Assembly (NCBI RefSeq): GCF_000425705.1
Contig: NZ_AUDY01000008.1
Location: 310,001 to 374,000, forward strand
DNA length: 64,000 nucleotides
Source: Halobacillus kuroshimensis DSM 18393
GTDB lineage: Bacteria > Bacillota > Bacilli > Bacillales > Halobacillaceae
Reading direction: 5' to 3'
Of the stretch, positions 24,661 to 46,598 are shown piece after piece. Numbering within the stretch: the stretch's first letter is position 1; each line of letters starts with the position of its first letter. The translations under genes were made by a program, and so were the position numbers. The notes under the pieces were generated by a model. That model was not told the DNA's origin. It did not search any database and worked only from the letters and a program-made list of their open reading frames with translations.

Positions 24661-25563
24661 TTGATCTGGTTTCAGGCTTTTATCCACCTCGTACTGCCCG
24701 TACTATTGTTTGTCCATTTATTGAAATCAGCGTATTCGAAACGTACATACCTCTTGATAGACTGGGTTGCGGCTCTTATGTTCATGGCATTTATTTTTAT
24801 CATCGGGCCGTGGCACATGTTTACCCACTACATGCGCTGGCTTCTGCCTCTTGGTTTTTTGGTAGTCAGCGTTTTTGTCTACAGGCGCTGGCGCAGCCTG
24901 CCTGAAAAAGCTGAAGAGAAGAATAAAGGGTCCGTATTTTCCATGGTAATCAGCATTCTTCTTATTCTTTATTTTGGTTCCATTGCGGTTTCAGGGCTGT
25001 CAGGATATACCCTGCCGGAAAAAGACAAGATCGTCGACATGGAATTTCCGTTGAAGGATGGGGTCTATGCAATCGGTCATGGGGGAGCCAGTACGTCCAT
25101 CAACTATCACCATGAATCCAAGACACAGGCTTATGCTTATGACATTCTTAAAGTCAATGCGCTTACCGCCCGTGCTGACGGCATATCCCCTGCCAGACTG
25201 GAAGATTATGAAATTTATGGGGAGCCGCTGTACAGTCCGTGCGCAGGTGATGTGACAGCAGTGGTGGACGAATATGAAGACATTCTTCCGCAGGCGGAGC
25301 CGGACAAGGAGCAGCACCCCGCCGGAAATCATGTCATTCTTTCCTGTCAGGGCGTGGATGTTCATATCGCTCATATGAAACCGGGCACAGTTCATGTCCA
25401 GGAGGGAGATGCGGTTGAGGCGGGTCATCTCTTAGGGGAAGTGGGAAACACAGGAAATACGACAGAGCCGCACCTTCACATTCATGCAGAAAAAGATGGA
25501 GAAGGCGTGCCCCTGACGTTTCATGACCGCTTCTTGAAACGAAACAGCCTCGTATTTCAGTGA
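24661..25563 (+). CDS. Membrane-anchored M23 family metallopeptidase
   Basis: 300 residues. The N-terminal part has four helices (about 3-20, 29-45, 48-65, 82-100); the C-terminal part (about 135-295) is a LytM/M23 beta-sheet peptidase. Catalytic features: HH...YAYDI near residues 142-160, which supplies a zinc His and Asp, and HLHIH (about 277-281) with the second pair. M23 enzymes cut peptidoglycan peptide bridges, so cell wall remodelling outside the membrane is likely. TTG start after GAAGGGAA; a later start is possible. Confidence 0.85.
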   Translation: MIWFQAFIHLVLPVLLFVHLLKSAYSKRTYLLIDWVAALMFMAFIFIIGPWHMFTHYMRWLLPLGFLVVSVFVYRRWRSLPEKAEEKNKGSVFSMVISILLILYFGSIAVSGLSGYTLPEKDKIVDMEFPLKDGVYAIGHGGASTSINYHHESKTQAYAYDILKVNALTARADGISPARLEDYEIYGEPLYSPCAGDVTAVVDEYEDILPQAEPDKEQHPAGNHVILSCQGVDVHIAHMKPGTVHVQEGDAVEAGHLLGEVGNTGNTTEPHLHIHAEKDGEGVPLTFHDRFLKRNSLVFQ

Positions 25564-25617
25564 GGAAACCCGGGGTGGAGTCATCTTTGACGGGCTGCAC
25601 CGGACTTTTAAGCCTGA

Positions 25618-25648
25618 GACAGCACACATGTGCTGTCTTTTTTTATTT
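25618..25648 (+). terminator. Terminator after the M23 peptidase gene
   Basis: The stem GACAGCACA/TGTGCTGTC is followed by a run of seven T. Confidence 0.9.
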
Positions 25649-25652
25649 TTGT

Positions 25653-25677
25653 AAAACTATTTATGCACCTGTATCGT
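25653..25677 (+). promoter_or_regulatory. Candidate ECF-type promoter
   Basis: AAAAC and CGT are separated by 17 bases just before the sigma factor gene, which fits the GAAAC-N16/17-CGT pattern of Bacillus ECF promoters. It would make the operon autoregulated. The match is short, so this is a candidate only. Confidence 0.4.
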
Positions 25678-25700
25678 TTAATGGGGCAGGAGGGGACAAC

Positions 25701-26240
25701 GTGGAACACTCAATGAATACATCTATCGAACATGAAAACAAAGAAGCAATCATCCAGGATCTGATGGAAAACTACGGAACAGCCATCCTCCACCTTGTCT
25801 ATTCCTACGTCAAGGATGCGGCACTGGCGGAGGATCTAACGCAGGAGATTTTCGTGAAAAGCTATCACCACCTGCATACATACAACGGAACGTCGAAAAT
25901 GACGACGTGGCTGTGGCGGATTGCCATCAATCACTGTAAGGATCATCTGAAAAGCTGGTATAACCGGAAAGTCACTGTGTCGGAACAGGAACAGCTGGAA
26001 CAGACGAAAGATGCTTCCACTACGGAAGACGCAGTCATCCAGAACCATATCGATCATGAATTGGCCGGCGCTGTGATGGACCTGCCGGACAAATACAGGG
26101 AGGTCATCTATCTTCATTACTACGAAGACTTATCGACGAGAGAGATGGCCGACGTTTTAAAGAAAAATGAAAATACGTTAAAGACACGGTTGAAACGCGC
26201 GAGAGTTTTACTTAAACAACGCCTGGGAGGGACGCTTTGA
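25701..26240 (+). CDS. ECF-type RNA polymerase sigma factor
   Basis: 179 residues with sigma region 2 (about 25-90: LVYSYVKDAALAEDLTQEIF, then MTTWLWRIAINHCKDHLK) and region 4 (about 115-170: LPDKYREVIYLHYYEDLSTREMADVL, then the ENTLKTRLKRAR recognition helix). No region 3 or 1.1, as expected for ECF factors. The GTG at 25701 follows AGGAGGGG. It overlaps the PadR gene by one base, so it should be coupled. The partner anti-sigma factor is not obvious. Confidence 0.92.
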   Translation: MEHSMNTSIEHENKEAIIQDLMENYGTAILHLVYSYVKDAALAEDLTQEIFVKSYHHLHTYNGTSKMTTWLWRIAINHCKDHLKSWYNRKVTVSEQEQLEQTKDASTTEDAVIQNHIDHELAGAVMDLPDKYREVIYLHYYEDLSTREMADVLKKNENTLKTRLKRARVLLKQRLGGTL

Positions 26241-26653
26241 TGGAAAATCGATTAAGAAAGTTGAAGCAGGCACTCAATCATACATCATTTAATACGTTGA
26301 CATTCGATCAGGAGCATCGAAATCAAGTGATGGAGAAAATAGCTGGTCAGGACACGAGACCCGAACAAATCCGTCTGTCTATTTTACAGCTCCTCGTACA
26401 GGAGGAGACAGGCTATACGCTGGCTGGTAAAATCCGGTCAAGAGGGATCAAAACGTTTGAAAACGATCAAGGTGCGCTGTATACGACGCTTCACATTCTT
26501 GAACAGAAGCGCTGCATCCAGTCGGAGTGGAAAGAGGACGGGCAGAAATTTTATCAACTGACGAGAAAAGGGAGAAAGCTGCTTAAGAAATATGAGTCTT
26601 CGCCCGACAAACCCCGGGTGCTGCGTACACTCGTGGAGGCGGGTCAGATTTGA
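26240..26653 (+). CDS. PadR-family regulator with N-terminal extension
   Basis: 137 residues. An N-terminal extension of about 38 residues (MENRLRKLKQALNHTSFNTL...) precedes a PadR winged helix (about 42-115: IRLSILQLLVQEETGYTLAGKI, then GALYTTLHILEQKR and YQLTRKGRKLLKKY). PadR proteins bind DNA as dimers and often control a neighbouring HAAS-domain protein. The start overlaps the sigma stop (TGATG) and its stop overlaps the next gene, so all three are coupled. The N-terminal part could bind the sigma factor; that is a guess. Confidence 0.85.
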   Translation: MENRLRKLKQALNHTSFNTLTFDQEHRNQVMEKIAGQDTRPEQIRLSILQLLVQEETGYTLAGKIRSRGIKTFENDQGALYTTLHILEQKRCIQSEWKEDGQKFYQLTRKGRKLLKKYESSPDKPRVLRTLVEAGQI

Positions 26654-27942
26654 TATCACGAAACGATTATCTTCAGACCGTCCAGTCCTATATTAAAAAC
26701 AAAGAAACAGGTGGTATGATCGCCCGTGAGTTGAACAGCCATATCCAACAGGAAAAAGAAAGCTTGATGAACAAGGGGTACAGTGCAGACGAGGCCGAGG
26801 AGGAAGCGGTCCGCCGGATGGGGAGTGCACCGGAAACCGGCCGTCATTTCGAGGACGTGTACAAGGAAAAAATCGACGGATGGCTGGTCTTTCTTCTTGC
26901 TGCGTTGATGGGCTGCGGTTTTCTGACGGCCCTGATCTTCAGCGGAGAAAACGGCTATTCATTCAACGGGAAATTCTTCTTCACTGTGGTCGGTATCTTG
27001 GTGGCAGGGGCTCTCCTGTTTATCGACTATAGGAAACTCCAGCCATTAGGGTGGCTGTTTTATGGGCTGGGTCTGGCGGGAGCCATGTTTCTGACGTGGG
27101 GGCCGATGTCGATGACCACGCTTATTTTGGGGAGCGTGGGTATCCAAGTCGGACCCTTTCATGTGACCAGCATTGACTTCATTCCATTGCTCCTCATTGG
27201 TCTTGCTGCTATCGGCAGTAAAGGTCCCGTAAAGGTGTGGAAGGGGATCCTGTTGTATCTGTTTCCCGTCTACTTTTTCATGGAAGCTGCAGATCCGAAT
27301 GCTGCGTTCATTTATACGCTGCTCTTTACAGCCCTGTTTGTCCATAAGCAGGTGAACAAAAAGATCCTCTGGTCGTTGGTTTCATTAGGAGTCATCGGAG
27401 CTGTATCTGTTGGAATGTGGTTCTTTACAGCTGCTGCCATCTATCAAAAAGAGCGGCTGCTGTCGTTCTTTTCTCCTGAGAAATTCTCAAACGGGGGCGG
27501 GTACATGTATCTGCGAATGGAGGAAGTCATCAGGGATGCCGCATGGATAGGAGAGGGAGCACAAGCGGAGCCGCTGCCTTCCGGTCACACCGATTTTGTC
27601 TTTCTTTCAGTACTGAATCAGCTGGGCTGGGGCGCTGCGCTCCTTCTCCTGATTCTTCTGAGCCTTGTGCTTGGCCGCCTGTTCTGGATGTCAAGGAAGA
27701 TCAAAGAACCTTTCGGTCAGCTGCTTGTAAGAGGGAGCCTGGTTTTCTATGCTGTTCCAGTTTTTTATCACGTGCTGATGTCTATGGGAATCCTGCCAAC
27801 CGCTTCCTTCCCGCTTCCGTTTCTCAGCTACGGGATGGACGCTACCGTTCTTCATGCTGTTTTATTCGGGCTGGTGTTGAGTGTATACAGGAAGAAACAT
27901 CCCGCTTCCTTTGCTGCCCAAGGGAAAACGATGGTTCAATAA
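26650..27942 (+). CDS. HAAS domain fused to an FtsW/RodA/SpoVE-type (SEDS) membrane protein
   Basis: 430 residues. Residues 1-75 form an HAAS-type helical domain (YIKNKETGGMIARELNSHIQQ, then GYSADEAEEEAVRRMGSAPETG) of the kind found beside PadR regulators. Residues 80-420 carry about nine to ten helices with SEDS features: HTDF at 313-316, with Asp315 at the position of the RodA catalytic aspartate, and LPFLSYG near the C-terminus. SEDS proteins polymerise peptidoglycan. No partner PBP is nearby. The TTG start overlaps the PadR stop by four bases. Confidence 0.85.
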   Translation: MISRNDYLQTVQSYIKNKETGGMIARELNSHIQQEKESLMNKGYSADEAEEEAVRRMGSAPETGRHFEDVYKEKIDGWLVFLLAALMGCGFLTALIFSGENGYSFNGKFFFTVVGILVAGALLFIDYRKLQPLGWLFYGLGLAGAMFLTWGPMSMTTLILGSVGIQVGPFHVTSIDFIPLLLIGLAAIGSKGPVKVWKGILLYLFPVYFFMEAADPNAAFIYTLLFTALFVHKQVNKKILWSLVSLGVIGAVSVGMWFFTAAAIYQKERLLSFFSPEKFSNGGGYMYLRMEEVIRDAAWIGEGAQAEPLPSGHTDFVFLSVLNQLGWGAALLLLILLSLVLGRLFWMSRKIKEPFGQLLVRGSLVFYAVPVFYHVLMSMGILPTASFPLPFLSYGMDATVLHAVLFGLVLSVYRKKHPASFAAQGKTMVQ

Positions 27943-27954
27943 TCACAGCAGTCA

Positions 27955-27989
27955 GACGGCTTCCTTGTAGAGGGAGGTCGTCTTTTTTT
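27955..27989 (+). terminator. Terminator of the sigma/PadR/SEDS operon
   Basis: The stem AGACG.CTTCC/GGGAGG.CGTCT is followed by eight T. Confidence 0.75.
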
Positions 27990-44938: not shown

Positions 44939-44973
44939 GAAGGAAGACCTGCACAAGGCAGGTCTTCCTTTAT
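44939..44973. terminator. Terminator between minus-strand genes
   Basis: The stem AGGAAGACCTGC/GCAGGTCTTCCT with A- and T-rich flanks lies at the end of the SGNH esterase gene. Confidence 0.9.
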
Positions 44974-46598
44974 TTGTGTACTGATTTCATCAGCTCTTCT
45001 GTTACGGAAGGGCCGACCGCTCCTGTTCCGCCTAAAATGGTGAAGTGACGGATGCCGAGCTCCTCTGCTGCTTCTGCAATGGAAGCATCAAGGTAATTAG
45101 GAGGAACAAGCAGAAACGTGCTGTTTTCTTTAGCAGCCAGGATCGATCCTGTCAAAGCATCGGCGAAATCTGAACCGGTGGCTATAAATGCCCGGTCTGC
45201 CGGATTCAACTCCTTAGCGATCAAGGCTGAAGTTTCATAGCGATTTTCGCCGCCGTAACGGACGGCTGAAGGGAGCGCATGAAAAACTTCATCAGAGATT
45301 ACACGCGTGCCGCCGACCGCTATCGACGCATCCACATCGGTTAGGGCCAGGGCCGTAACGTCGGGGAGTCGGATGTCTTTCGTAAGTAAAACCGGAGATC
45401 CTTTTCCTGCAGCGTAGGAGGCGATGGCCAGGGCATCAGGGAAATCCATACCATTCGCTACTACAGCTTGTTGAGGATTCCCGTTTAAGACAGCAGCAAT
45501 ATTAGCTGCTGTTACGAACCGGTCTTTACCACCAATCCGCTGAACGGAAAGGCCCATTCCCTTTAACTGATTTTCAACAAAAGGAGAGACCGCTTCTGTT
45601 CCGCCCAGAATGACGGCTTTGTCCGCTCCGAGTCGCTGGATCTCTTCCATGACTTCAGCTGGCAGGCGTTCTTTCGTAAGCAGGATGGGCGCATCCATTT
45701 GGTAGGCAAGTGGAGCTCCTGCCAATGCATCTGGAAAATGGTCTCCTCTGGCAAGGACGATGGTGTCTGATTCGTCCCAGCCCTGTTTAGAAATTTCAAC
45801 AGCTGTTTCATACCGGTTCTCTCCGGCAATCCGGTCTGTGGCAATAGGGAGGAATGGTTTGACCGCTTTCCAGAACTCCTCAGCAATTCGTTCATAGCCC
45901 TTTTCACCAGGATGGACGTTCTGCGGGTTCGGGAGGTAGGTGTCATAATTCTCAGCCACTGCCTCGAACGTAGCGACATATTCACTTCCTGATGCAGACG
46001 CCACCTTCTGGATGGTTTGATTCAATGCGTTCATCAACTGAATGAACTGCTGCTGGTCTTCTTCAGGGTAGGCAGGAAATGAATTGTAGTAGCCCATAAG
46101 GAAGATCTTCGCATCCGGATTGACGGTTCGAATCTGATGGACGACTTTTCCATAATTCTCGCCCACATTCTGCAGGATTGCTTGAACGACTTCCGGATTT
46201 TTAAGCTCGTCAGGGTCTTTACTGAATACCTTTAAAAAATCGTTGGCTCCAATACTGATCGTAATCAAGTCGGCTTCAGCGGCTGATTTTACAGCCTCCT
46301 CATTCGTCTGCATCTGACTGAGCAGCCCCTCCGAGGTCAGCCCCGGAACAGCGAAGGCCTTCGTGAACTCTTCAAGCCTGTCGACATTTCTTAAATCGTC
46401 GGCTAAAAAGTCGGCATAGCTGAGTCCTGCAGAACCGTCGGATTGGATACCGTAGGCGAGGGAATCGCCAAGCGCCGTGTATCTCCATTTTCCGTTATCT
46501 GTTGAATCTGCTGCCCATCCATGGGCAGGGAAGACCAACAGGGCCACAAGGAAAAGGATGGGCCATAACCGACGCCGCTTCTGTTTGCTTCTATTCAC
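44970..46598 (-). CDS. Secreted SGNH/GDSL esterase with three cell-wall-binding repeats
   Basis: 542 residues. A Sec signal peptide (residues 1-29, ending AHGWAA) precedes a GDSL esterase domain (about 38-245) with the nucleophile Ser46 in GDSL, the ISIGANDF block III and the final NVHPGEKGYERIA block V. The C-terminal half (about 250-540) has three CWB2-type repeats (DRIAGENRYETAVEISKQGW, and similar), which bind anionic cell-wall polymers. Likely a surface-bound esterase. AGGAGGAAAGC precedes the ATG. Confidence 0.93.
   Translation of the reverse strand: MNRSKQKRRRLWPILFLVALLVFPAHGWAADSTDNGKWRYTALGDSLAYGIQSDGSAGLSYADFLADDLRNVDRLEEFTKAFAVPGLTSEGLLSQMQTNEEAVKSAAEADLITISIGANDFLKVFSKDPDELKNPEVVQAILQNVGENYGKVVHQIRTVNPDAKIFLMGYYNSFPAYPEEDQQQFIQLMNALNQTIQKVASASGSEYVATFEAVAENYDTYLPNPQNVHPGEKGYERIAEEFWKAVKPFLPIATDRIAGENRYETAVEISKQGWDESDTIVLARGDHFPDALAGAPLAYQMDAPILLTKERLPAEVMEEIQRLGADKAVILGGTEAVSPFVENQLKGMGLSVQRIGGKDRFVTAANIAAVLNGNPQQAVVANGMDFPDALAIASYAAGKGSPVLLTKDIRLPDVTALALTDVDASIAVGGTRVISDEVFHALPSAVRYGGENRYETSALIAKELNPADRAFIATGSDFADALTGSILAAKENSTFLLVPPNYLDASIAEAAEELGIRHFTILGGTGAVGPSVTEELMKSVHK

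Follow-up and report, generated by a model that had tools for sequence, protein, structure and literature searches.

A putative anti-sigma module on the PadR regulator of a SigC-type sigma factor operon in Halobacillus kuroshimensis

How is an extracytoplasmic function (ECF) sigma factor kept in check when the genes that accompany it encode a PadR-family regulator and a membrane protein of the SEDS (FtsW/RodA) family? This question is raised by three overlapping genes in a stretch of 64,000 nucleotides of Halobacillus kuroshimensis DSM 18393 (contig NZ_AUDY01000008.1, positions 310,001 to 374,000), hereafter called the window. An initial annotation of this DNA had seen no classic anti-sigma factor in the operon. 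That statement overlooks the N-terminal extension of the PadR protein, which corresponds to a module of single-pass proteins encoded beside ECF sigma factor genes. The gene order, the shared module, the co-occurrence of sigma factor and extension, the conservation of the promoter and the loss of SEDS residues were computed here. The reading that is favoured, by a modest degree of belief, is that of a SigC-type operon in which PadR would act both as anti-sigma factor and as repressor, with a degenerate SEDS protein as sensor that would act through its HAAS domain.

The three-gene unit and its promoter

The three coupled genes lie on the plus strand between 25701 and 27942. Reading of the open reading frames (ORFs) and matches to Pfam and NCBIfam models bore out the order ECF sigma factor, PadR and HAAS-SEDS given by the initial annotation. 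The first gene (25701-26240, GTG start) encodes a SigC-like sigma factor with Sigma70 regions 2 and 4, which scored 250 bits (cut-off 198) against NF006930, the NCBIfam model labelled 'RNA polymerase factor sigma C'. Its stop overlaps at 26240 the ATG start of the second gene (26240-26653), which encodes an LstR-like PadR-family regulator (NF006931, 139.6 bits, cut-off 112). The third gene starts with TTG at 26650, inside the end of the PadR gene at 26653, and encodes up to 27942 an Lmo0421-like HAAS-SEDS membrane protein (PF01098, 75.8 bits, cut-off 26.4). With an NF006930 sigma factor, an NF006931 PadR protein directly downstream and an FtsW/RodA homologue in third place, the operon is the Halobacillus form of the known sigC-lstR-lmo0421 type of Listeria monocytogenes, in which the same three gene families stand in the same order (PMC6624303). 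It is not new as an operon; the new part is the N-terminal extension of PadR as a shared sigma-linked module. In Listeria, LstR was reported to be an autorepressor whose loss raises the operon about 140-fold, and SigC was reported to activate only its own promoter, which depends on it fully (PMC6624303). A small number of further SigC-affected proteins was found in a proteomic study (PMC3721983).

Relatives of the SEDS protein were collected from one genome per species by means of one C-terminal peptide pattern, by which 153 were found and the best 80 loci were kept. In 78 of these best 80 loci the sigma factor and PadR genes lie directly upstream of the SEDS gene in the same order, which agrees with the initial proposal that the three genes belong together; one locus with a sigma factor frame broken by an in-frame stop (L038) was scored as sigma present. 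As a unit, the three genes are conserved. Among named relatives, Halobacillus litoralis is the nearest, with 85% identity of the SEDS protein. The two exceptions (L069 and L076) are HAAS-SEDS genes without sigma factor or PadR. Such genes with neither partner adjoining were seen in L076 (4884-6308), L285 (2649-4019, minus strand) and L069 (4971-6254), and a complete operon is present at another place (L116) in the genome of L076 (G041). Pairs of a plain PadR and a HAAS-SEDS gene without sigma factor were seen in L117 (3053-4742), L044 (9239-10899, minus strand) and L284 (2764-4418, minus strand); the three genomes concerned hold the full operon too.

Upstream of the sigma factor gene, an ECF-type promoter of the form AAAC-N17-CGT is located at 25654-25677, the site that had been put forward as a candidate. 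The motif was found 5' of the sigma factor gene in 109 of 120 distinct sigma-PadR operons, compared with a mean of 1.5 in dinucleotide shuffles. If a spacer of 16 or 17 nucleotides was allowed, 118 of the 120 operons matched (shuffled 3.3), as did 34 of the 62 membrane-type operons described below. In the window alone AAAC-N17-CGT is common (12 matches, 6.6 expected), and the promoter was accepted because it is conserved across operons, not because it is rare in the window. On the strength of this conservation in sequence the site is regarded as a real promoter of the operon, and it is predicted to be probably autoregulatory. With up to three mismatches, an extended form of the promoter gave a single site in the whole genome, namely the one at the operon, in line with what was reported for Listeria SigC, the activation of no promoter but its own.

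The N-terminal extension of PadR

The initial annotation had called the N-terminus of the PadR protein unusual, and rightly so: 47 residues precede the Pfam PadR match, a winged-helix domain of residues 48-116 (26381-26587; PF03551, 48.3 bits, cut-off 27). The sigma-linked PadRs are longer at the N-terminus by about 40 residues that share one pattern, and by profile these were detected in 78 of 78 named loci. Among 45 aligned extensions M1 and F22 are invariant and L5 and L8 occur in at least 90%. The first 36 residues (26240-26347) form the proposed anti-sigma domain. The profile used, A2, is 36 residues long, was built from PadRs only and was searched in six frames; it omits L067, L082 and L089 (short deletion in the extension), near-copies, and rows with a wrong start including L092, L093, L102, L107 and L110.

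Profile A2 gave matches at E 0.05 or better in 74 of 150 genomes of the order, both in PadRs and in longer single-pass membrane proteins. An ECF sigma factor gene lies directly upstream of the match at 103 of the 109 loci examined, a set that excludes the four weakest rows of this search. The other six comprise three fragments (L204, L210 and L223), two likely chance matches (L219 and L221) and one locus near a contig start (L225). For the longer ORFs with the module, picked with E below about 5e-4, the proportion was 39 of 39. Altogether 182 distinct pairs of sigma factor and extension were obtained, 120 with a PadR winged helix and 62 without. In all but one of these 62 a single membrane helix is predicted, with its start at residue 34-50, and at the conserved positions of the extension the window PadR lines up with these membrane carriers. 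Their outer parts vary: in ten of the 39 longer ORFs searched with Pfam, DUF4030, DUF4367, a signal peptidase domain and an LCP domain were above cut-off in one protein each, and DUF4179 and DUF4871 were slightly under it. Membrane anti-sigma factors such as RsiW and RsiV are built likewise, with a short module at the N-terminus, a single helix and an outer part that varies.

The occurrence of the extension follows that of the sigma factor also among HAAS-SEDS genes and within one genome. The 158 HAAS-SEDS sequences collected, repeat copies included, reduce to 124 distinct ones by the sequence of the SEDS part. When these were tallied by another stretch of sequence, 118 are accompanied by sigma factor, PadR and extension, three by a PadR with neither extension nor sigma factor, and three stand alone; since part of the 118 came from extension searches and is not independent of the extension, the unbiased count is the 78 of 78 named loci. 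The genome of H. kuroshimensis has nine PadR-like places, eight of them above cut-off, and the extension is found at one only.

Judged by sequence, the extension and the N-terminal part of the single-pass proteins whose genes adjoin ECF sigma factor genes are one module. Because it is sigma-linked, common to these membrane proteins and missing from the three sigma-less PadRs, it is probably an anti-sigma domain that was grafted onto PadR. The window PadR has in common with ECF anti-sigma factors that it is encoded beside an ECF sigma factor and carries a module of single-pass proteins in the same position. In a tree of 114 sigma factors with midpoint root, the 45 PadR-linked ones sampled from the 120 formed one clade (100/94), beside and among the sigma factors of the membrane form; therefore, a single graft explains the data. 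The sigma factor at L113 (737) sits among the membrane-type ones although its partner is not recognised by A2.

Several membrane carriers of the module deserve a description of their own. One protein (L165, 1424-2236, minus strand) combines the module with a signal peptidase I domain (PF10502, E 1.9e-25). RsiV and RsiP are first cleaved by signal peptidases (PMC8844934), so that the L165 protein may, from its domain composition, be an anti-sigma factor that brings its own protease. The sequence of a further carrier (L179, 1365-2225, minus strand) resembles it and is possibly of the same kind. Moreover, in L162 (2052-2912, plus strand) the module is joined to a domain of the LCP (LytR-CpsA-Psr) family of cell-wall glycopolymer transferases.

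From its PadR neighbour the window sigma factor is presumed to belong to the group ECF265. About half of the members of this group have a single-helix anti-sigma factor, for which RsiP, the tested anti-sigma factor of sigmaP in Bacillus thuringiensis, is the model (PMC8092216). The two systems, likened here by description only, share an ECF sigma factor with an inhibitor (in the window, a proposed one) encoded adjacent to it; RsiP is membrane-bound and removed by proteolysis, whereas the window module stands on a protein for which no membrane helix is predicted. RsiP was not shown in two large genomes (L251 and L252) that were considered possible holders. In the part of the literature consulted on PadR with ECF or anti-sigma factors, on ECF265 and on LstR with SigC, no paper was recognised that gives a PadR protein an anti-sigma role. 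ECF265 members with PadR repressors are listed among the ECF groups without a cognate anti-sigma factor (PMC8999054).

This listing agrees with a simpler explanation, which is considered rather unlikely, if a serious competitor: PadR would only be a DNA-binding autorepressor, the extension would dimerise PadR or be what is left of an earlier anti-sigma factor, and the sigma factor would be set by its amount. The part C-terminal to the winged helix is short, about 20 residues only, so that a further element for dimerisation is plausible. A strain whose LstR carries a triple mutation in its DNA-reading helix was, moreover, as derepressed as the deletion, at a promoter that depends fully on SigC (PMC6624303); therefore, the extension alone does not silence SigC in Listeria. 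Either repression by DNA binding suffices, or an anti-sigma effect needs DNA binding. The numbering of residues in LstR (90, 92 and 93, against 49, 51 and 52 in LltR) suggests that LstR itself is longer at the N-terminus by about 41 residues; the main text of that paper (PMC6624303) contains none of the terms anti-sigma, N-terminal and HAAS. A mere autorepressor is harder to reconcile with the conservation of M1, F22, L5 and L8, with the presence of the extension in membrane proteins that adjoin sigma factor genes and have no PadR part, and with its absence from the three sigma-less PadRs of the same PadR-HAAS-SEDS pairing.

The HAAS-SEDS protein as sensor or enzyme

The N-terminal residues 1-66 of the third protein (26650-26847) form a HAAS or permease prefix domain 1. 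The Pfam HAAS match was below threshold (18 bits, cut-off 27), and the NCBIfam model 'permease prefix domain 1' matched residues 13-66 above its own cut-off (NF038403, 40.9 bits, cut-off 30). In the AlphaFold model of the protein, four helices lie in the stretch from residue 4 to residue 71. The remark of the initial annotation that HAAS domains are known beside PadR proteins matches published proposals (PMC11237479, PMC12419801). In the HAAS-PadR dyad of Ravi et al. 2024 (PMC11237479), proposed as an alternative to two-component systems, HAAS can be fused to an FtsW/RodA domain with PadR adjoining, e.g. in CAC98500.1. The window has the HAAS domain on a membrane protein and the adjoining PadR, but the PadR of the dyad is stand-alone and that of the window carries the 36-residue module. 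A plain PadR, as in the dyad, is found in the three sigma-less pairs. In the text of PMC11237479, as far as it was available, the term ECF is absent and no anti-sigma module is named; SIGMA-HTH appears among the regulators in a figure legend.

It had also been suggested that the HAAS-SEDS protein could hold the sigma factor at the membrane, in which case it would itself be the anti-sigma factor and PadR an independent repressor. HAAS is expected on the cytoplasmic side, as this would require. The idea is very improbable: the sigma-linked module is on PadR, and the link of HAAS with PadR is seen for several unrelated membrane proteins (PMC11237479). The HAAS-SEDS protein was rejected as anti-sigma factor because pairs of HAAS-SEDS and PadR without an adjoining sigma factor exist, in three distinct cases.

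Further on, the protein has a degenerate SEDS-type transmembrane domain (residues 76-416, 26875-27897). The AlphaFold model of the protein (15 sequences, predicted local distance difference test (pLDDT) 80) matched RodA/FtsW structures in Foldseek (6pl6, E 1.1e-12). The residue Asp315 (codon 27592-27594), which the initial annotation had taken as a sign of activity, is indeed present and aligns with the Asp262 of Escherichia coli RodA; Asp215 and Pro310 are kept as well, at the positions of Asp159 and Pro257. The conclusion drawn from Asp315 is weak, with other SEDS residues lost, the Asp sometimes replaced and Lmo0421 unable to replace its homologues. The window protein has Ile165, Asp176 and Pro179 at the positions of RodA Trp102, Glu114 and Lys117, and in the family (n = 158) Trp was found 45 times, Glu twice and Lys never at these positions. 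At the catalytic position Asp is present in 103 of the 124 distinct members and Asn, Glu or Ile in 21. Trp, Glu, Lys and Asp are all kept in 18 of 18 canonical SEDS proteins compared. In E. coli RodA the Asp is essential and changes of Glu114 and Lys117 had modest effects in vitro, and in SpoVE of Bacillus subtilis the matching changes severely cut sporulation (PMC10449877).

A sensor-like role is more likely because the canonical residues are lost and the catalytic Asp is sometimes replaced; the SEDS part is probably a degenerate sensor rather than a working polymerase, although the window protein could still be active. The opposite view, that the SEDS part still polymerises peptidoglycan as a reserve enzyme produced under stress, which the circuit just induces, seems unlikely. 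It draws on the kept residues and the fold, and the Listeria authors weighed it as well, citing a spontaneous lmo0421 mutation in a cell-wall-less L-form (PMC6624303). Apart from the residue counts, what speaks against it is that overproduction of Lmo0421, a non-canonical FtsW/RodA homologue, replaced no tested RodA or FtsW and altered no tested sensitivity to cell-wall drugs (PMC6624303).

The proposed circuit and its setting

From these data we infer that the extension binds the sigma factor, that HAAS binds PadR and that a signal acts on this contact. In the resting cell, residues 1-36 of PadR would hold the sigma factor, with the winged helix sitting at the operon's own promoter, and the HAAS domain of the membrane protein would bind PadR. 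On an envelope signal, read through the SEDS fold, the contact between HAAS and PadR would then change, either by capture or by release of PadR. PadR would let go of promoter and sigma factor, the sigma factor would transcribe its own operon in a positive feedback, and newly made PadR would reset the circuit. Because the helix mutant of LstR equals the deletion, a double lock, or an anti-sigma action dependent on DNA binding, is favoured. A more specific version is offered tentatively, as a possibility that would still have to overcome some doubt: PadR would tie the sigma factor at its own promoter through the grafted anti-sigma domain, and a receptor derived from a polymerase would control the pair through HAAS. 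If this is true, a promoter-bound anti-sigma factor would make up a three-protein circuit in which ECF signalling is joined to HAAS-PadR signalling and cell-wall precursors are read.

Besides the LstR helix mutant, several observations weigh against PadR as a combined anti-sigma factor and repressor. No PadR operator was recognised in the promoter stretches. Inverted arms of at least six pairs were present in 61 of 117 stretches, compared with 36 of 117 single-base shuffles, and had no common place among the 15 inspected. In the single-chain AlphaFold model of PadR the extension consists of two helices of low confidence (block means 52-64; residues 41-120 with the winged helix, 81-94), as would befit a domain that takes up its fold on contact with a partner; this is no evidence of binding. 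In the scan of 45 extensions none had a model of its own in Pfam or NCBIfam, where each model was matched by few members except NF006931, matched by all 45, and a search of the PDB with the extension gave nothing significant (best E 0.82). The module is sparse outside the order (29 of 398 genomes of the class at E 0.001, members of the order included), its membrane carriers are anti-sigma-like by layout, and the sigma-less PadR pairs number three only and are alike in sequence. Finally, a published sketch shows PadR bound to HAAS and freed on stimulus (PMC12419801), the reverse of membrane capture.

As for the surroundings, two of the five terminator-like sites found in the scan (2.6 in shuffles) bracket the operon. 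The first, a hairpin followed by a T run (25616-25639, plus strand), lies 3' of the gene for an M23 peptidase (24661-25563), which stands on the same strand directly 5' of the operon. The second, likewise a hairpin with a T run (27954-27983, plus strand), lies 3' of the operon. No penicillin-binding protein (PBP) was found among the 19 window ORFs scanned with Pfam, in agreement with the earlier remark that no partner PBP is nearby. Farther away on the minus strand (44970-46598), one protein combines a GDSL lipase domain with three stretches of cell wall binding domain 2.

The three-gene operon of this salt-loving Bacillus relative looks like a membrane-stress switch. For Listeria SigC, presumably a member of ECF265 with PadR, no inhibitor is known in the literature examined, to the extent that it was accessible. 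If residues 1-36 of PadR bind the sigma factor, this would bear on the operon in the window and on some 120 relatives collected. In that case an anti-sigma domain would have passed from membrane proteins to a DNA-binding repressor, so that two styles of signalling merged, and a SEDS enzyme would have become a probable sensor.

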